Shown: one piece after another, positions 3,728-37,101 of the stretch
How the letters are laid out: each line of letters starts with the position of its first letter
Position numbering within the stretch: the first letter of the stretch is position 1
NCBI GenBank assembly: GCA_002715725.1
Contig: PAZU01000054.1
Coordinates: 1 to 38,792, forward strand
Direction: 5' to 3'
DNA: 38,792 bases
DNA from: Methanobacteriota archaeon
GTDB taxonomy: Archaea > Thermoplasmatota > Poseidoniia > Poseidoniales > Poseidoniaceae
Made by a program: the position numbers and the translations under genes
The notes under the pieces: model-generated
Database searches by the model: none
Seen by the model: only the letters and a program-made list of their open reading frames with translations
What the model was told of the DNA's origin: nothing

Positions 3728-4531
3728 TCAAGCGATACGCTCGACCGTCTCTGGAGTGATTCCTTCTTCTGGGGTAACTCTGAAAACCATAATCGACAGA
3801 TTTTCAGGTGCGTTTCTAAACTTAGAAACGGTCATCGAAGTTTCGAAATCTGAACCAATTGTTCTTACCTTGAAGTCACAAACCATGTCGGCAATAGCAG
3901 CCATTTCTTGCTTGATTGCAGGAGTAATAGTGTCCTTTGAAACTGTGACGAACAAAATTCCACGATGGATTTGAGTGTGTGCTTGCATCATACGCAACAT
4001 TGCAACTACTCTACTCTGGTCTTCTCTTTGCATGAAGAAATCAAGTGAATCAATAACCGCTCTGAAATAAGGACCCATTGCCATAATCTCGTTAGTCATC
4101 TCTGTCAAGAAATCTTGAGTGTCATCATCTACAAACCTAGTTTGAGCTAAACGCTGGATATCTGGTAATTTGAAGCCTTCAAGGCGGTAACGGCTGGCTA
4201 GCAGTTCCTTCTCCAAAACCTTAGCGTTGTATTCTTCACCAAGAGTCCTGACAGCGATATCTGTTGGCCACTTGTACTTGTTGAAAACCCTTGCAATCTC
4301 CAATTGACTCTCGTTTGTGGAAATCAAGATTGTATTATCAGGTTCTTCAGCAGGAGATGTTAGTTGCTTTGCAAACAATTCTGAACCTGCACCAGTTTCG
4401 GTAAAACCGACCACCAAGAATCCTCTTGGAACACCACCATTCATTGCATTATCGAACTTCGGAACACCAAAACTTCCCACGCTACCAAAGAATTCCTCAT
4501 CATCAGGACTGAATTTGATTTGTTTACTCAT
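3728..4531 (-). CDS. KaiC/RecA-superfamily ATPase-like protein with degenerate P-loop (KaiC-like 3)
   Basis: 267 aa; KaiC-like N-terminus FGVPKFDNAMNGGVPRGFLVVGFTETGAGSE, where GxxxxGK[ST] has become GFTETGAGSE; Walker B-like YFRAVIDSLDFF retained. Confidence 0.75.
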   Translation of the reverse strand: MSKQIKFSPDDEEFFGSVGSFGVPKFDNAMNGGVPRGFLVVGFTETGAGSELFAKQLTSPAEEPDNTILISTNESQLEIARVFNKYKWPTDIAVRTLGEEYNAKVLEKELLASRYRLEGFKLPDIQRLAQTRFVDDDTQDFLTEMTNEIMAMGPYFRAVIDSLDFFMQREDQSRVVAMLRMMQAHTQIHRGILFVTVSKDTITPAIKQEMAAIADMVCDFKVRTIGSDFETSMTVSKFRNAPENLSIMVFRVTPEEGITPETVERIA

Positions 4532-4543
4532 CTAATCACGCTC

Positions 4544-5143
4544 CTAATGAATTACTACCTGTCCACGGTCGATCAAGTCTGTACAGTAAAGGTCAAGATT
4601 GGAAAGAACTGTTGGTGGCACCTGGTCAGGTATGTTTAGAATAACAGACAGAACCTCTCTTTGTCTGAAAGTGTTGATGAAGGTGTGAAGATATTCTGCT
4701 AGCATTCTCTCTTCATTGTAAATCGCTAATGCATTGACTGAATCAATAAGAACGAAATTTCTCTCATTGTTTGAGATTCTCAAGATGTAAAGAGTTCTCA
4801 GCAATACGCTTTCGAGCATAATTGGGCTGTCAACGAATGTAATATTGCTGTAAGGTACTTCCGTGCCTCCCAAAATTCCTGAGGAAACCAAGTCGACGAA
4901 TTGAATGTTGGAAACATCAACACCAATTGCCTCGAATGCTTCGATAATCTCGACTGCGCCACGAGTAGCGCAAATGTAAACTCCGCCCATTTCGAACATT
5001 TGCATGAGTGGAATCATTGTGGATGCTGTTACCATAAACGCATTTGAGTTGCCACACCTAACTTGAATTGAAGAATTCAAACTGACCTCGGTCAATTGCT
5101 CAGCAATTCTTTGATCTAATTCAAACATTTTCAGGACCCCCAT
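4544..5143 (-). CDS. KaiC/RecA-like domain protein lacking a P-loop (KaiC-like 2)
   Basis: 199 aa; Walker B-like NFVLIDSVNALAIY present, no GxxxxGK[ST]; sits between two KaiC-like genes on the same strand. Alternative start at 5128. Confidence 0.65.
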   Translation of the reverse strand: MGVLKMFELDQRIAEQLTEVSLNSSIQVRCGNSNAFMVTASTMIPLMQMFEMGGVYICATRGAVEIIEAFEAIGVDVSNIQFVDLVSSGILGGTEVPYSNITFVDSPIMLESVLLRTLYILRISNNERNFVLIDSVNALAIYNEERMLAEYLHTFINTFRQREVLSVILNIPDQVPPTVLSNLDLYCTDLIDRGQVVIH

Positions 5144-5931
5144 CTGTTAGTTTTGTCACTAACTGCTCCCCATTTCAGCATTGGGGTTAGCATTACTCCA
5201 AGCGGCGTCAATTCAATAGCGTGCTTTGCACGACTGTGAGATGTACCTCGCATTTTGACCACTTGTAAAAATCTCAACAAGTGACCCATCCTTTCTACAT
5301 CGCCCATAACGATGATTCCGTCAGCAATAGCCTCTTCTACACCGAATGATGACCAGTGCGCATTTTCAGAAGCTGAAGTAATCTCTGAAATCAAAATCGT
5401 AGTACATCCAAGAGTTGCCAACTTCTTTCCTAGAGTAAACAAGAAATCTCTAATCAACTGCTCACTCTTAATCTTGTAACAAAGAGTAGTTACAGAATCG
5501 ATGACCAATCTTGTGACACCAATCGTATTGACTATGTCTACAATTGCTTTAATCAAAGCGTGAACGTCATCCAAATCAAATGATGCTTTGTCAAGACCTA
5601 GCCAAGAATACAATACGTCCATATCGAATACGTTAATCAGCCCGCTATCGATCATGTTCATGTCAAAGAAAGCATATTGACGAATATTTTCCAGCAATTT
5701 AACACTCGGTTCTGTTGCTGTAAAGTGCGCACACGCCTCTCCTGCTAAAGCACCACGAACCAGGAATTCCATTCCCAGAGTAGTCTTTCCAGAACCACAA
5801 GTTCCAGCAGCCAAAACTGTAGAACCGTAAGGGATTCCACCTCGCAGGATTTCATCCATTCCGTGGATGCCCGTGATACAACGGTCGCGGGTGTAAACAG
5901 TTGCAGGTTGCATGGCTAACATACAACCCAA
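5131..5931 (-). CDS. KaiC-like RecA-superfamily ATPase with intact Walker A (KaiC-like 1)
   Basis: 266 aa; TGIHGMDEILRGGIPYGSTVLAAGTCGSGKTTLGMEFL (Walker A), TRLVIDSVTTLC (Walker B), VVKMRGTSHSRAKH typical of KaiC-like proteins. Confidence 0.9.
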   Translation of the reverse strand: MGCMLAMQPATVYTRDRCITGIHGMDEILRGGIPYGSTVLAAGTCGSGKTTLGMEFLVRGALAGEACAHFTATEPSVKLLENIRQYAFFDMNMIDSGLINVFDMDVLYSWLGLDKASFDLDDVHALIKAIVDIVNTIGVTRLVIDSVTTLCYKIKSEQLIRDFLFTLGKKLATLGCTTILISEITSASENAHWSSFGVEEAIADGIIVMGDVERMGHLLRFLQVVKMRGTSHSRAKHAIELTPLGVMLTPMLKWGAVSDKTNRWGS

Positions 5932-5966
5932 TCAATCACACTAAATGAACGATACGCCAAAAACGC

Positions 5967-7073
5967 TCAGACTTCGCCCGGAGTTGGAGAATCTGAGACA
6001 TTCCATGAACTATCTTGAGAAGGAGAACCTCCATTCCAAACAATTGTGTTGCCAACAAGAATACCAGAAGATGCGCCCCACTCTATTTTACACACTTGAG
6101 TTCCTTGGCCTTCGTCCTCTTCAGCGAATAGCATTCTCAACCTACCAGTATTATCATCTAAGCCGCTGACTGAGCCAACTCCAAGGAATCCTGTAGAACC
6201 CAAATCATAGACTACGCTAGCATTCCCAACATCCTGTGAAGTTGGGTCTCCACTGAATAGAGCAATTCCCCCACCAGGAATTACGCCTTCTTTGTAGAGA
6301 TATTCGCTAGAACCAGCAGTCCCGCTGCGCTCGAATGACCAACCTTTCAATGACAAGGCGAATCCGTTGTAATTTTGAACTTCTATCCATTCTGGAGCAC
6401 CACTGGCAGGTCGTGGAGAGATTTCTGTAATCCTGAGAACCTTCGGAGCTTTACCTCCATCATGAACCTCAAGACTCACCGAAATTACATCTTGCCCACT
6501 AATGAAAGTTCTACTGGCAACAGATGAAGTACTTGCAGTGAATCTATCGGCGCCTCCATCAAACAAGACTTGGCCGACTCTAGATGAATTAGAGGAGGAT
6601 TCTACTTGAATAAGTAATCTCACTTGCAGTTCATCTGAAAGTCCTAATCCGCTAGTTATAGCCTCAATGCTGACATTTGACAGAGCTTCGATACGATCTA
6701 AATCTAATAATCCATTACTAATTATTCCCGGTTGTAGTACTCCTTCATACAATTTTGTAACCGGTACTAAGTGCCATTCCTCTGTAGCATTTGCCTGGTC
6801 TCTGACTCCGTCTACGTAGGGAACATACCATCCCTCACCATTAGTCAATCTATCCAAGCCATCTACTGCAGAACGGTCAATCAAATCGGAATATGGGTCA
6901 TTACTCCCCAATTCCAGTTGTGCCAATGACATAAATGCAGTCAATATCATCAAGAATAATGTGAATGCAGAAAGGAACTCTACTACTGCAACAACCGCTT
7001 CTTCTCCTTGTTTAGGAGATTTGCGCAGGTGTTGAGGCCTCTGCATAATACAAGGGAGTCGCTCAAGAGTCAT
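5967..7073 (-). CDS. Membrane-anchored protein with lamin-tail-domain-like (LTD) region
   Basis: ORF track runs to 7196, but ATG at 7073 (MTLERL...) avoids overlap with the divergent gene at 7168; one hydrophobic N-terminal segment EAVVAVVEFLSAFTLFLMILTAFMSLAQL; LTD-like LRITEISPRPASGAPEWIEVQNYNGFALSLKGWSFER. Confidence 0.75.
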   Translation of the reverse strand: MTLERLPCIMQRPQHLRKSPKQGEEAVVAVVEFLSAFTLFLMILTAFMSLAQLELGSNDPYSDLIDRSAVDGLDRLTNGEGWYVPYVDGVRDQANATEEWHLVPVTKLYEGVLQPGIISNGLLDLDRIEALSNVSIEAITSGLGLSDELQVRLLIQVESSSNSSRVGQVLFDGGADRFTASTSSVASRTFISGQDVISVSLEVHDGGKAPKVLRITEISPRPASGAPEWIEVQNYNGFALSLKGWSFERSGTAGSSEYLYKEGVIPGGGIALFSGDPTSQDVGNASVVYDLGSTGFLGVGSVSGLDDNTGRLRMLFAEEDEGQGTQVCKIEWGASSGILVGNTIVWNGGSPSQDSSWNVSDSPTPGEV

Positions 7074-13615: not shown

Positions 13616-14704
13616 TCAGTTTTCTGCGGCATATCCGTAGAATCCTGGATTTTCTGGATTTGGAAGAGCGTCTCGCTTAACCAGCATTGTTCTTACAGCC
13701 CACAAGTCTGTAAAAATTCTATATTTTAGGGTCATATCGAGGTAATCAACACCACTCGATCCTCCAGTACCCATTCTCCTTCCTATCATTCTCTCGACCA
13801 TTCTGGCATGATGAGAGCGGAAGAGTAACATCGATTCTTCTAAATCAACAACAGTATCAATCAATCTTCTAGGCCACGAAAGCAATGGAAGTTCACGATA
13901 TGATTCTATGAAAAGTAATCCAGCCCGAGCTGCTGAAACTTCACCATCTGGTAACAAGAATTTCCTAGCGCCTTCGATTCCAGATAGTATTCTTGGACGA
14001 ATTGTTTCTTCAGAACCATGTCCTATCTTTACCATGTGAGCAATTACTGACTCCCCGTGCTCCTCCATTGAACTTAGATGCCCTTCGACGAAATCTCGCA
14101 ATACATCTACATCGCCAGATACTCCATTAACTGGGGTTCTTGAAAGCCACCTCTGTAATACATCGTTCAAAGAAGGCATATTGTCAACACGATTCATATC
14201 TTGCATAACCGAATCACTCAATTTTCCTTCAGAGTGTAACTTACGGTTATGTTCCATTGGGTCCATACCTCCAATTCTTTGCTCCGATTCAAGCCCAAGA
14301 AGCATTTCTAGCATCCGCATCTGCCAACTTTCAAACCCGGATGATGTACCAAGCCTATCTCTGAATGCCAAGAAATCTTGAGGAGCTAGGGTTTCCATGA
14401 CCTTCCACTGAGATGCTAGTAGACGAAATATTTCCGAGCAGCGTTCAAGATGGCTTACAATTACTGGTATCTGCTTTTCATCTACTTCTGGAACATCCAT
14501 CAGCGTTAACACATCATCTAATTCTCTGTTAATCTGCTTGAACCACAACTCGAAAGCCTGGTGAGTCACGATAAAATGCATTTCATGATTAGAAGGGGTA
14601 GGCATATGGCCTTCAGGCCCGGATTGCAAAGACAGTAACTCATCCAATTGTAGATAGTTTCCATAGGTCATCCGACTGTTGGGAGTCTTCCCGCTCATAT
14701 TCAA
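13616..14704 (-). CDS. kynA: Tryptophan 2,3-dioxygenase
   Basis: 362 aa; MTYGNYLQLDELLSLQ...HEMHFIVTHQAFELWFKQINRELDDV, FRDRLGTSSGFES..QMR are TDO signatures. Confidence 0.93.
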   Translation of the reverse strand: MNMSGKTPNSRMTYGNYLQLDELLSLQSGPEGHMPTPSNHEMHFIVTHQAFELWFKQINRELDDVLTLMDVPEVDEKQIPVIVSHLERCSEIFRLLASQWKVMETLAPQDFLAFRDRLGTSSGFESWQMRMLEMLLGLESEQRIGGMDPMEHNRKLHSEGKLSDSVMQDMNRVDNMPSLNDVLQRWLSRTPVNGVSGDVDVLRDFVEGHLSSMEEHGESVIAHMVKIGHGSEETIRPRILSGIEGARKFLLPDGEVSAARAGLLFIESYRELPLLSWPRRLIDTVVDLEESMLLFRSHHARMVERMIGRRMGTGGSSGVDYLDMTLKYRIFTDLWAVRTMLVKRDALPNPENPGFYGYAAEN

Positions 14705-32756: not shown

Positions 32757-33701
32757 TTATTCCTCACAAGCCCTCTTGATTAGCACTTTTATCATGTTTC
32801 TGCGATACCTTGGAGGTAGAGAAGTGTTGTTCACAGGTTTAGTAGATTTGAATACCGCATCACAAATTGCCTTGACATCGCCGTTTGATTCTGAAACTTC
32901 AGTATCATGTCTTCGTGGAATGCTTTCCAATGCAGTCGTAGCAACTCTTAGAGTAGTTCTGTCGCCTTTTTTCCATGCTGCAGCTGCGCCTGCCTCTGGG
33001 AAATCCCATGAGTCTCTCACCCTTAATTTACGATAGGAGCCGGTCCAATCTGCAACATCATCAGGCAGTGTAATCTTGAGCATAAATTCACCTGGCTGCA
33101 ATACATTTCTGGTCATTCCATCTAATTTGTAAAATTCTACCAGAGGCATGACTCTTGTACCATCCGGGCCAATCAAATGAACGCTTGCGTCTAAAACCAT
33201 TAGCGTTGGTGCTATATCTCCTTGGTAAGTAGCCACACAAAGTTCATTTTGATTTGGAATAACTCTGCAATCTGCACCTGTTCCACAATCGCATTTATGG
33301 CACCAGTCAATACTACTCCTCCATTCTTCTGTTTGGTTAAACCAAAAACAACGCGTATCCAAACAAAGATTGCCTCCAAGAGTTGCATTTCTTCGTATCA
33401 AAGAAGATGCAACTTTACTAGCAGCATCTGAAACAATAGGATGTACATCCTCTGATTCAGCGATATCATGTAATCTAGCCATACAGCCGATTTCTGTCAT
33501 TGAAATTTCTGAAAGGCCATCAATGCCTGCTAGAGAAATAACGTGAGGTTTGGAATTAATGTGCCACTTATAGTTAGGAATAAGGTCGGTACCACCAGCA
33601 ATCCAATCAAATTCATCACCTGCTAACATGAGTTCTTTAGCGATTGTACATGCCTCTGACACCGATTTCGGCTGATGAAGTTCAAATGGCGGCATTAGCA
33701 T
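32757..33701 (-). CDS. Molybdenum hydroxylase FAD-binding subunit, 4-hydroxybenzoyl-CoA reductase beta-like with extra Cys loop
   Basis: 314 aa; AGGTDLIPNYK, SSLIRRNATLGGNLCLDTRCFWFNQTEEWRSSIDWCHKCDCGTGADCRVIPNQNELC...; CoxM/HcrB fold plus Cys-rich insertion. Confidence 0.9.
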   Translation of the reverse strand: MLMPPFELHQPKSVSEACTIAKELMLAGDEFDWIAGGTDLIPNYKWHINSKPHVISLAGIDGLSEISMTEIGCMARLHDIAESEDVHPIVSDAASKVASSLIRRNATLGGNLCLDTRCFWFNQTEEWRSSIDWCHKCDCGTGADCRVIPNQNELCVATYQGDIAPTLMVLDASVHLIGPDGTRVMPLVEFYKLDGMTRNVLQPGEFMLKITLPDDVADWTGSYRKLRVRDSWDFPEAGAAAAWKKGDRTTLRVATTALESIPRRHDTEVSESNGDVKAICDAVFKSTKPVNNTSLPPRYRRNMIKVLIKRACEE

Positions 33702-36505
33702 TATTTCCCACCCTCCATGTGCCTCTGCTCTTTTTTAGTCCACGCAGTACCTGCTAATCCGAGGTTATCTAATTGACTGGAATCGGGTTTTACGGAAATC
33801 TTCCAAGTCTCGTCCTGTTCTTCGGGTGGTAATGTTGGATCTAATCCAAATAAAACACCATTTAGATACGGTCCCTCATCCTCCCTTCTCTGTCGACGTG
33901 AGTCTCTTATTTTATGCTCTGCAGACCTTTTAATCAATTTCTTTTGAAGTTCGGAGAAATCCAATCTAGGGACAGGTAAATCTCTCGCATCATCTATCTT
34001 TTCCCTCTTCATCTTCTTGGAAATAGCAGCCCAAACCTTGTCGGGTGTTAACGGAAGGTCGTTTACTCGAACCCCTATTGCATCATACACCGCATTAACC
34101 ACCGCCGGTAAGATTGGAAGAAGAGGACCTTCGCCTGCTTCTTTCGCACCAAATGGGCCCTCAGGGTCACATGATTCGATTATTATTGGAGTTACATTAG
34201 GCATCTCATGGACACTTGGTATTTTGTATTCCAAAAAGTTTGGATTTTGTAAATGACCCGTTCTACCATAGACCATTTGTTCAGACAGGACTTGTCCTAA
34301 GCCCATGTGACAGGAACCGATAATCTGTCCTTCGACCGCTAACGGATTCAGAGCTTTTCCACAATCATGAGCAGCCCAAACATCGGTGCACTTGATCAAT
34401 CCTGTATCAACGTCAACCTCGACCTCTGCAACGTAAGCAGAAAAGGAATAGGCAGGTGCTAGGCCTGCCGCTGCGCCTTTGTGCACTCCACCCATAGGCG
34501 GAGTTCGATAAGCACCACTTGCAATCAATGCCCCAATATCTTCTTGTGATTTATGCAATGCATCCAGATAAGATACACCGATTGTAGGGTCTTTCTTGAA
34601 GTATATCCGCCTGTCATTCAATACCAATTTTTCAGGCGGTAATTCCAACATTTCACCTGCAGCATTCAGAAGTTTTTCACGGATTTCTAAAGCCGCTCCA
34701 ATAGCAGCATTTGCATTCATGAAAGTCACTCTGGAAGAGTAGGAACCTAAGTCGACTGGACTAGTATCGCTTTCATGGGAACGAACATGGACCATTTCTA
34801 ATGGAAGAGCCAAGACTTCTGCAACTACCTGAGCGACCGCTGTACTCGAACCTTGACCAATGTCTGCAGCTCCTGTGTGAACTGTCACTCCTCCATCCAT
34901 ATCGATTTGCAAATGAACTGTTGCATGAGGGAAATTATGAGGGTCCCAGTGAATCGGTAAACCCGAACCAGAAATGAAGAAACCACAGCCAATACCAATT
35001 CCTTTACCAATTGGTAATTTACGGAATTTTTCATCCCAATTACTTCCTTCTCTAACCCTTTCAAGCGCTTGACGCATCCCATTCGAGGTTATTCTAAATC
35101 CAGTTATTGTTTTAGAGTGAGGTGGCAATAAATTTGCTAAACGGAGGTCGATAGGATCTACCTGTAATTTTTCTGCAATGTCATCAAGTCCTACTTCTAT
35201 TGCACACCTTGTGTTTACTGCTCCATGGCCCCTCATTGCACCACTGGCAGGCTTGTTCGTCCACACTCGGGCTCCAGTATAGTGGAAAGACCCAAGTTCA
35301 TATGGCGCTGTTGCTAGAACACCATTGTAGTAAGATGTAACGTGTCCAAATGAAGCAAAGCCCCCTCCATCAATCAGTGCATCGATTTCAAAACCAGAAA
35401 TTTTTGCATCATCATTTGCATTTATTTTCACTTCAATGTGTGAAGGATGTCTTCCACGGTTTACCCAGAATACCTCTTCCCTGTCAAATGTTATTCGAAC
35501 TGGCCTACCTGCCTTTCTCGCCAAAATTGCAGCGCACATTTCATGAGGGAAAGGGTCGGATTTTCCGCCAAATCCTCCACCCACAAATGTGCGTATGACA
35601 TTGATTTGGTGCATGGGGACTTCAAGTACGGTGGCTAATGCTCTGTGAGCATAATGAGGTACCTGCTGAGGAGTATACAACTGTAAACGTCCGTTAGAAT
35701 CCCAATGAGCGACGACTGCGTGAGGCTCTGTGAATCCATGATTGACTCCCATGAATTTCCACTTTCCGTTGTGAAATGCCTTTGTGGTATCTTCGAGGCT
35801 CTCTCGGTCCCCGAATTCTTGGAAGACTCTTTTTTGAACATTAGTCGAACCAATATGGTATGGACCCCGCCAATGGATAGGTTCGTCGACATCAAGAAGC
35901 CCTTTCTTAGGGTCGTGAATCGCGTCAAGTACCTCGTACTCAACCTCTATGAGCGCTGCTGCTTGACGTGCCGTTTCTTCATCGGTTGCAGCAACACATG
36001 CCACCAAATCCCCTACGTGTCTAACCTTCTCAACAGCCATCGCATGCTCGTCCTTTGTTACTGGCAAAACCCCAAATTTGCTTGGAGCATCTACGCCAGT
36101 TGATACAGCTATAACTCCAGGTAATTCTTCCGCTTTTGTCGTATCAATACTTTTCACTTTAGCATAGTGATAAGGAGATCTGACTATCCTTCCAATTATT
36201 TCGTTTGGTAACCTAATATCGTCACCATACCACGCTTGTCCCGTGACTTTAGCATTCGCATCAACTAGAGGGGTTCTTTTTCCAACCGTAGTTCCAGTAC
36301 GAAAACTATCATGTGAGTGAGCACCTGCTGGTTGAGGTTCATTACCGCCTTCAAGCTCAGGAATAAATTCTAAATCACGCTCAGCCATTTCGGGCCTAGA
36401 ACCTCCAGAACCAGGAGGATTAAATCTTAATTTTCCTGCAACTCTCTTGCCATCGACACGAACGTCCTTGTTCATACCAGCCTGCTGAACGTAATCCTTG
36501 CTCAT
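33701..36505 (-). CDS. Molybdenum hydroxylase large (molybdopterin-binding) subunit, xanthine dehydrogenase family
   Basis: 934 aa; TPLVDANAKVTGQAWYGDDIRLPNEIIGRIVRSPYHYA, VGGGFGGKSDPFPHEMCAAILA, GAMRGHGAVN, GPFGAKEAGEGPLLPILPAVVNAVYDAIG. Confidence 0.95.
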   Translation of the reverse strand: MSKDYVQQAGMNKDVRVDGKRVAGKLRFNPPGSGGSRPEMAERDLEFIPELEGGNEPQPAGAHSHDSFRTGTTVGKRTPLVDANAKVTGQAWYGDDIRLPNEIIGRIVRSPYHYAKVKSIDTTKAEELPGVIAVSTGVDAPSKFGVLPVTKDEHAMAVEKVRHVGDLVACVAATDEETARQAAALIEVEYEVLDAIHDPKKGLLDVDEPIHWRGPYHIGSTNVQKRVFQEFGDRESLEDTTKAFHNGKWKFMGVNHGFTEPHAVVAHWDSNGRLQLYTPQQVPHYAHRALATVLEVPMHQINVIRTFVGGGFGGKSDPFPHEMCAAILARKAGRPVRITFDREEVFWVNRGRHPSHIEVKINANDDAKISGFEIDALIDGGGFASFGHVTSYYNGVLATAPYELGSFHYTGARVWTNKPASGAMRGHGAVNTRCAIEVGLDDIAEKLQVDPIDLRLANLLPPHSKTITGFRITSNGMRQALERVREGSNWDEKFRKLPIGKGIGIGCGFFISGSGLPIHWDPHNFPHATVHLQIDMDGGVTVHTGAADIGQGSSTAVAQVVAEVLALPLEMVHVRSHESDTSPVDLGSYSSRVTFMNANAAIGAALEIREKLLNAAGEMLELPPEKLVLNDRRIYFKKDPTIGVSYLDALHKSQEDIGALIASGAYRTPPMGGVHKGAAAGLAPAYSFSAYVAEVEVDVDTGLIKCTDVWAAHDCGKALNPLAVEGQIIGSCHMGLGQVLSEQMVYGRTGHLQNPNFLEYKIPSVHEMPNVTPIIIESCDPEGPFGAKEAGEGPLLPILPAVVNAVYDAIGVRVNDLPLTPDKVWAAISKKMKREKIDDARDLPVPRLDFSELQKKLIKRSAEHKIRDSRRQRREDEGPYLNGVLFGLDPTLPPEEQDETWKISVKPDSSQLDNLGLAGTAWTKKEQRHMEGGK

Positions 36506-36513
36506 GCTGACAC

Positions 36514-37101
36514 CTACATTTCTGGACCATCAGGGTGGGGGTCTGAATGTGCTGCATTGTTCGAGGTAACAGCATCGGCCTCTCCCCTATGAATTGCAGC
36601 AGCTGCTTGAATTGATTGTACTATTTGTTGGTACCCAGTGCATCTGCACAAGTTGCCTTCGATAGCGCAGGAAATTTCCTTTTCTGTAGGGTTAGCATTA
36701 TTGTTTAGAAGTGCTTGTGACGCTACAAGAAAACCCGGAGTGCAGAAACCACATTGTGACCCACCATGTTCTGCAAAACACTGCTGTATTGGCGCTAAGT
36801 GTGAGCCATTTGCCAATCCTTCTACGGTTGTTATTTCACAGCCATTGACCTCATGAGCCATGGTTAGACATGAAAGTCGAGGTACTCCATCAATCATTAC
36901 GGTGCAACAACCACAGGTACCCATATCGCAGCCTCGCTTAACACCAAGGCACCCTGTCTTGTCTCTCAAAACATCCAGTAATATCGAATTTGACTTTGCG
37001 ATGACTTCATGTTTTTGCCCATTAACTTCGGCAGACCACACTTTAGAAGTCGCTGCTGGAATCATAGAAACATGCTCTTCTCCGACCATCTCTAACGCCA
37101 A
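36514..37101 (-). CDS. Molybdenum hydroxylase [2Fe-2S] small subunit
   Basis: 195 aa; GCLGVKRGCDMGTCGCCTVMIDG, QCGFCTPGFLVASQALL, EGNLCRCTGYQQIVQSI. Confidence 0.95.
   Translation of the reverse strand: MALEMVGEEHVSMIPAATSKVWSAEVNGQKHEVIAKSNSILLDVLRDKTGCLGVKRGCDMGTCGCCTVMIDGVPRLSCLTMAHEVNGCEITTVEGLANGSHLAPIQQCFAEHGGSQCGFCTPGFLVASQALLNNNANPTEKEISCAIEGNLCRCTGYQQIVQSIQAAAAIHRGEADAVTSNNAAHSDPHPDGPEM

Follow-up and report, generated by a model that had tools for sequence, protein, structure and literature searches.

The window analysed here, meaning the whole stretch of 38,792 nucleotides, is contig C54 (PAZU01000054.1) of a genome from the archaeal order Poseidoniales (assembly GCA_002715725.1; 1.94 Mb, 76% complete). 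Its gene content fits Marine Group II, as the preliminary description of this DNA supposed. The window carries a minus-strand run of four near-contiguous genes in the same direction, which encode a lamin-tail protein and three KaiC-related proteins, KaiC-1, KaiC-2 and KaiC-3 (hereafter, the trio; Table 1). All four genes had been located by a preliminary description of this DNA, which read the trio as one active ATPase and two pseudo-ATPases. Its spacings change on both sides of KaiC-1: start codons conserved among homologs make ATG at 5913 (KaiC-1) and ATG at 5128 (KaiC-2) the probable starts, so the 35 bp and -13 bp originally given become about 53 bp and +2 bp. The trio is conserved across the phylum Thermoplasmatota, usually beside pilin genes, and is therefore probably a previously unrecognised control part of the pili of these archaea.

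Table 1. Genes of the KaiC trio locus and its divergent neighbour (window coordinates).
Gene	Position	Strand	Features
KaiC-3	3728..4531	-	KaiC/ArlH-related; degenerate P-loop GxGx[E/D]L, K-x-R finger kept
KaiC-2	4544..5143	-	predicted shortened KaiC-fold pseudo-ATPase; no P-loop, no C-terminal K-x-R finger
KaiC-1	5131..5931	-	single-domain KaiC family; intact Walker A GTCGSGKTT, Walker B, KMRGTSH finger
Lamin-tail protein (P0004), 368 aa	5967..7073	-	membrane-anchored; N-terminal pilin-like helix (VVEFLSAFTLFLMILTAF), C-terminal lamin-tail immunoglobulin-like (Ig) domain
Divergent neighbour, 983 aa	7168..10119	+	predicted exported, C-terminal membrane helix; fast-evolving

KaiC-1, KaiC-2 and KaiC-3 are all single-domain proteins of 199-267 aa, with no tandem pair of KaiC domains. 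KaiC-1, which is 75-98% identical across the Poseidoniales, matches PF06745 at 177.5 bits, well above the curated cut-off of 26.6 bits, and scores 34.5 bits against the NCBIfam ArlH model, the equivalog cut-off of which is 215 bits. In alignments, the glutamate pair (EE) typical of KaiC reads T-E in this protein. KaiC-3 also exceeds the PF06745 cut-off (46.3 bits). Among NCBIfam models it matches ArlH best, with 56.5 bits, far below the cut-off, and ArlH models were matched, weakly, by each of the 18 KaiC-3 proteins sampled. The degenerate loop of KaiC-3 reads TGAGSELF in the window.

KaiC-2 is the most divergent in profile searches, as it scores 22.2 bits against PF06745, below the cut-off (one distant KaiC-2 reaches 33.1 bits), and sequence searches of the PDB, a profile search included, returned no match. 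An AlphaFold2 model of the protein is a confident one of the alpha/beta type, with a predicted local distance difference test (pLDDT) score of 82 and a predicted template modelling score of 0.84. Because a fold search of the PDB matched this model best to FlaH/ArlH of Sulfolobus (4yds, E 1.8e-7) and then to KaiC, KaiC-2 is, on the strength of its predicted structure, a true KaiC-fold protein. KaiC-2 proteins additionally match DUF7090, a family of unknown function with a member in Haloferax volcanii; such matches were obtained for 18 of 24 sampled KaiC-2 sequences (best E 5.3e-8), below the curated cut-off for the member inspected in full. Weaker matches involve DUF7504, likewise a family of unknown function, or DUF835. 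Judging from these similarities, the three DUF families may be further KaiC relatives devoid of a P-loop.

Nucleotide-binding motifs were surveyed in 119 KaiC-1, 119 KaiC-2 and 90 KaiC-3 sequences, drawn from the Poseidoniales and from distant relatives. The P-loop is present in every KaiC-1 (119/119) and, at the right place, in no KaiC-2 (0/119) and no KaiC-3 (0/90); the single P-loop-like match in KaiC-3 lies at the C-terminus of one homolog and is due to chance. The K-x-R/K finger, which in KaiC extends into the nucleotide site of the adjacent subunit, is found in 114 of the 119 KaiC-1 and 86 of the 90 KaiC-3 proteins. It occurs in at most one KaiC-2, as KaiC-2 proteins end before the C-terminal region that bears it. 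Three motif classes are therefore distinguished, namely loop plus finger (KaiC-1), neither (KaiC-2) and finger only (KaiC-3). The Walker A motif of KaiC-1, the missing P-loop of KaiC-2 and the degenerate one of KaiC-3, all reported in the preliminary description, hold both in the window and among homologs, and its scheme of one active and two pseudo-ATPases corresponds to one P-loop protein with two P-loop-less KaiC-fold relatives.

The trio is stably maintained. In the family to which the window belongs, 108 of 116 genomes, spread over all 11 genera, encode KaiC-2, and the order lamin-tail/KaiC-1/KaiC-2/KaiC-3 is kept in both families of the Poseidoniales, with the three KaiC genes arranged identically in 19 of 20 other loci sampled in the order. 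The ratio of nonsynonymous to synonymous polymorphism (pN/pS) ranges from 0.03 to 0.25 for the three KaiC genes, with synonymous sites close to saturation; strong purifying selection acts on the trio, which is not decaying. Lack of synteny of the three genes, and unrelated folds or decay of KaiC-2 and KaiC-3, which the preliminary description had named as grounds for rejecting its reading, are contradicted by this gene order, by the fold that the two proteins share and by the selection acting on them.

Conservation extends well beyond the order. A profile search with KaiC-2 retrieved homologs from 205 of 391 Thermoplasmatota genomes, representing 83 of 152 genera, and the named hosts of the trio include Aciduliprofundum, Methanomassiliicoccus, DHVE2 and Haladaptatiplasma metagenome-assembled genomes (MAGs). 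Distant loci were taken as the best 80 of 414, which are related by descent and hence not independent; KaiC-1 lies immediately upstream of KaiC-2 in 77 of 79. In a phylogenetic tree, KaiC-1, KaiC-2, KaiC-3 and ArlH each form a separate clade with 98-100% bootstrap support. The three-way split is therefore ancient, and the trio is older than the divergence of the sampled lineages. Placement of KaiC-3 as the sister of ArlH was supported at 96/87 with two ArlH rows; it was recovered in 10% of bootstrap trees with eight, and was rejected. In two distant lineages, a protein of about 372 aa with an internal duplication is encoded between KaiC-2 and KaiC-3 (L161, 3751-4875; L163, 9285-10400).

The genes next to the trio connect it to type IV pili. 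Linkage was counted in the 62 loci outside the Poseidoniales that have at least 1 kb of downstream sequence, and in 46 of them the last KaiC gene is followed by a pilin gene that starts no more than 1 kb further downstream. Adjacent downstream DNA (2.5 kb windows, 152 kb altogether) contains 84 pilins, against 0 in 420 kb of upstream and 0 in 197 kb of further downstream DNA used as controls (617 kb in total). These pilin genes lie on the same strand as the KaiC genes, typically 30-285 bp after the last of them; one pilin was tested and is PF07790, and the others were identified by signature and phmmer. Within the Poseidoniales, a PilA-type pilin gene follows KaiC-3 in genera g5, g17 and g19, with a gap of about 10 bp in locus L112. 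Two of the three g17 loci have, in this order, genes for a prepilin peptidase, the lamin-tail protein, KaiC-1, KaiC-2, KaiC-3 and a PilA pilin, the peptidase gene being located immediately upstream of the lamin-tail gene. The peptidase was recognised by a PF06847 score of 26.7 bits (just below the cut-off of 29.9), a GGADAK motif and its context; phmmer found no match to it in the PDB. In the genome from which the window derives, contig C11 carries the PilA ortholog, and contig C6 the prepilin peptidase. The link between the trio and type IV pili is thus well supported. The preliminary description, which suggested that the trio could act on the envelope, pointed in the right direction; the type IV pilus context itself, with pilins downstream across the phylum, a prepilin peptidase upstream in one genus and joint presence with a PilB3-like ATPase, is absent from it.

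Three type IV filament systems are encoded in the genome: an archaellum (C3), a PilB3-like pilus (C18) and a Tad-like system (C11; CpaF/TadB/TadC). The C18 cluster comprises an ATPase of 507 aa, which matches PilB3_C weakly, two T2SSF proteins and two pilin-like proteins. The archaellum cluster on C3 (L041, 6402-13842) is complete, with arlJ, arlI, arlH, arlG, arlF, arlCDE-like and archaellin genes, and is followed by genes for two large CARDB-like exported proteins. The earlier statement that no archaellum genes occur near the trio is accurate for the window and does not extend to the genome.

Which of these systems accompanies the trio was assessed in 146 genomes of the order, 73 from each of its families (f1 and f2). 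KaiC-3 is present in 72 of the 73 f1 genomes. In f2, KaiC-3 occurs in 13 of the 16 genomes that have the C18 ATPase and in none of the 57 without it, and at the genus level the match between trio and C18 ATPase is exact (g15, g17, g19 and g22). With ArlI there is no such match: g14 and g21 have ArlI and no trio, whereas g17 and g22 have the trio and no ArlI. Within the Poseidoniales, the trio follows the PilB3-like pilus ATPase, not the archaellum. An association with the archaellum, tempting as f1 genomes have both, was rejected because of the genus-level mismatch in f2. Across the phylum, nearly every Thermoplasmatota genome has a T2SSE protein, so a phylum-wide test of presence has little power. 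On a tree of V-ATPase A, the f2 pattern corresponds to at least four state changes, of which about two look like genuinely independent losses, one in g12 and one in the g13/14/16/18/20/21 group. A g13 row groups with f1 and a g20 row with g17 in this tree (L181, L184), which suggests transfer of the V-ATPase gene or MAG contamination; the count of independent losses is tentative because of these misplaced rows.

The lamin-tail protein may belong to the same pilus. It scores 28.3 bits against the lamin-tail domain (LTD, PF00932), below the cut-off of 34.3. Its AlphaFold2 model (pLDDT 85.9) features a single long N-terminal helix (residues 21-54) followed by beta domains, and in the PDB it is matched best by lamin Ig domains. 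In a distant lineage, the trio is preceded by the gene for an ortholog (L163, 6104-7222) that passes the LTD cut-off at 44.3 bits, in line with the LTD-like membrane protein first proposed at this locus. The helix starts with the pattern [G/A]-x-x-A-V-[IV]-E-F-L-[ST]-A-F, in which the glutamate is conserved, and resembles the N-terminus of type IV pilins as well as, by eye, a 145-aa pilin-like protein of the C18 cluster. A FlaFind-type motif is present in 11 of 19 lamin-tail proteins, and the model gives only a weak structural match to Natrinema PilA2 (E 0.24). On the basis of the helix and the model, the likeliest role of this protein is that of a minor pilin or pilus anchor.

A precedent for how the trio may work is ArlH, which in the archaellum binds ATP without hydrolysing it, undergoes autophosphorylation, assembles into hexamers and controls ArlI (PMC8978795). 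Like KaiC-2, whose model is closest in structure to 4yds, ArlH has a KaiC fold, and it acts beside the ATPase of a type IV filament. However, ArlH is a single protein, encoded in the arl operon, and its P-loop is intact, whereas the trio comprises three proteins, two of which lack the P-loop, is encoded beside pilins and does not track the archaellum. We favour, with moderate confidence, the reading that the trio forms an ancient KaiC-family module of three parts, which serves a PilA/PilB3-type, non-archaellum type IV pilus as an ATP-controlled hetero-oligomer similar to ArlH. KaiC-1 would bind ATP, and KaiC-2 and KaiC-3 would be pseudo-ATPase subunits; the three most likely assemble into a mixed complex, a ring or something close to one, on the cytoplasmic side of the pilus base. 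Having lost its own nucleotide loop and kept the K-x-R finger, KaiC-3 may complete or sense the nucleotide site of KaiC-1, and KaiC-2, which has neither, could act as an adaptor or ring-breaker. By analogy with the action of ArlH on ArlI, the complex, depending on its ATP or phosphorylation state, would turn on or off the assembly of the pilus by the PilB3-like ATPase; the pilin-like lamin-tail protein would belong to that pilus as a minor pilin or an anchor. The hetero-oligomeric regulator suggested in the preliminary description is plausible. More tentatively, and with appreciable doubt, the complex may be a KaiC hetero-ring with a single kind of nucleotide site, in which KaiC-1 supplies ATP binding, KaiC-3 the K-x-R finger in trans and KaiC-2 a break or cap, and which could have been an asymmetric pilus switch since the ancestor of most Thermoplasmatota.

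Several observations weigh against the proposed pilus module. Sixteen of the 62 testable distant loci have no adjacent pilin gene. KaiC-3 is missing in 14 of the 62, which keep KaiC-1, KaiC-2 and the pilin, and is thus not always needed; moreover, its closeness to ArlH is unstable once ArlH sequences are added to the tree. In almost every locus the trio lies away from the gene for the pilus ATPase, so that gene order does not demonstrate a direct contact with the motor. The ATPase of the Tad-like pilus (C11) is lost in the same genera as the trio, so the exact pilus is not fixed by presence alone. Finally, the f2 genomes are related by descent and thus not independent, and the joint loss among them may amount to only about two events, as counted on a single-gene tree with misplaced rows.

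The main rival is a purely regulatory role resembling that of CirA and CirD of Haloferax. The trio would then be a signalling or expression regulator, acting outside the pilus base, in which nucleotide or energy sensing sets pilin transcription; we consider this rather unlikely. Such a role would suit a trio that adjoins pilin genes and not the motor ATPase gene, and there are parallels, as deletions of CirA and CirD alter archaellation and motility in Haloferax (PMC13286277) and KaiC proteins encoded near pili are classed as potential regulators in the main text of Makarova et al. 2016 (PMC4858521). Yet no DNA-binding domain was found by Pfam and NCBIfam scans in any of the three KaiC proteins. 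CirA- and GvpD-type regulators are generally single P-loop proteins and are not known to come as a fixed set with two pseudo-ATPases, which also weighs against regulation of this kind. That the trio and the pilus ATPase are distributed jointly points to a closer connection, although a regulator, too, could be lost along with its target.

It is improbable that the trio serves the Tad-like pilus and not the PilB3-like one. This would account for the T2SSE match counts in f2, in which absence of the trio always comes with absence of the Tad ATPase, and for the location of the PilA pilin gene of the genome, which is about 6 kb from the Tad genes on C11, but the pilins adjacent to the trio are of the PF07790 type, tied to PilB3-type ATPases in Haloferax according to the main text of PMC4858521. 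There is still less to be said for a circadian-type or general timing or signalling device without a special tie to pili, an idea that the top scores of KaiC-1 against KaiC models might encourage. The proteins are single-domain, the EE pair reads T-E, and pilin linkage is far above background; KaiB, already reported as missing from the window, has no match (PF07689) in the whole of this 76% complete genome. The slimmest chance is that of a second set of ArlH-like archaellum parts, a reading that draws on the similarity of KaiC-2 and KaiC-3 to ArlH and on the archaellum of the genome and that is largely refuted by the distribution of trio and ArlI described above, with a separate arlH already present in the C3 cluster and PF07790-type pilins, not an arl cluster, flanking the trio.

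The divergent neighbour adjoins the lamin-tail gene in 17 of 21 loci of the Poseidoniales, with an identity of 24-42% in most of them; it is a possible surface partner and may be a member of the system. Elsewhere in the window, three minus-strand genes at 32757-37101 encode products resembling the FAD-binding, molybdopterin and 2Fe-2S subunits of a molybdenum hydroxylase of the xanthine/CO dehydrogenase type, as read by eye from their translations. The product of another minus-strand gene (13616-14704) reads, likewise by eye, like tryptophan 2,3-dioxygenase, which is unusual in an archaeon.

KaiC-family ATPases encoded near archaeal type IV pili have been reported before (arCOG01171, 01174 and 01175) and were proposed as regulators in the main text of Makarova et al. 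2016 (PMC4858521), where, as here, KaiC-family genes adjoin type IV pilus genes. That main text describes neither a fixed trio in which two members are inactivated nor a KaiC-1/KaiC-2/KaiC-3/pilin array extending across the Thermoplasmatota; its supplementary tables and a 2017 KaiC survey lie outside the literature covered. The label "undescribed" that was first attached to this locus is therefore too broad for KaiC ATPases near pili; the fixed trio of one active and two inactive KaiC proteins, at least within the literature covered, appears to be undescribed. In the same main text, MinD/FleN-type ATPases are suggested to play, in euryarchaeal pili, the part that ArlH has in the archaellum. 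CirA and CirD of Haloferax volcanii are, like the trio, archaeal KaiC-like proteins that affect a surface filament, but they are encoded by separate genes, influence archaellum expression and form neither a trio nor a pilin array (PMC13286277). KaiC-1 aligns over its full length with the CI domain of cyanobacterial KaiC and keeps the P-loop and K-x-R finger. In contrast to cyanobacterial KaiC, the trio is single-domain, has T-E in place of EE and two pseudo-ATPase partners, and occurs with no KaiB found. In the Marine Group II literature searched, KaiC is not mentioned; a phylogenomic paper on this group, for instance, describes the archaellum and makes no mention of KaiC (PMC6461757).

We know of no established ArlH-like switch for archaeal type IV pili other than the archaellum. 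If the proposed module is real, a KaiC assembly with two dedicated pseudo-ATPases would be a candidate controller for archaeal pili, and would provide a simple case of a KaiC assembly made of unlike subunits. It would also give testable functions to P-loop-less KaiC families that databases list as unknown. The phylum that keeps the trio includes the most abundant archaea of the surface ocean, and for particle attachment by Marine Group II the finding would be a reason to seek pili, not archaella alone.

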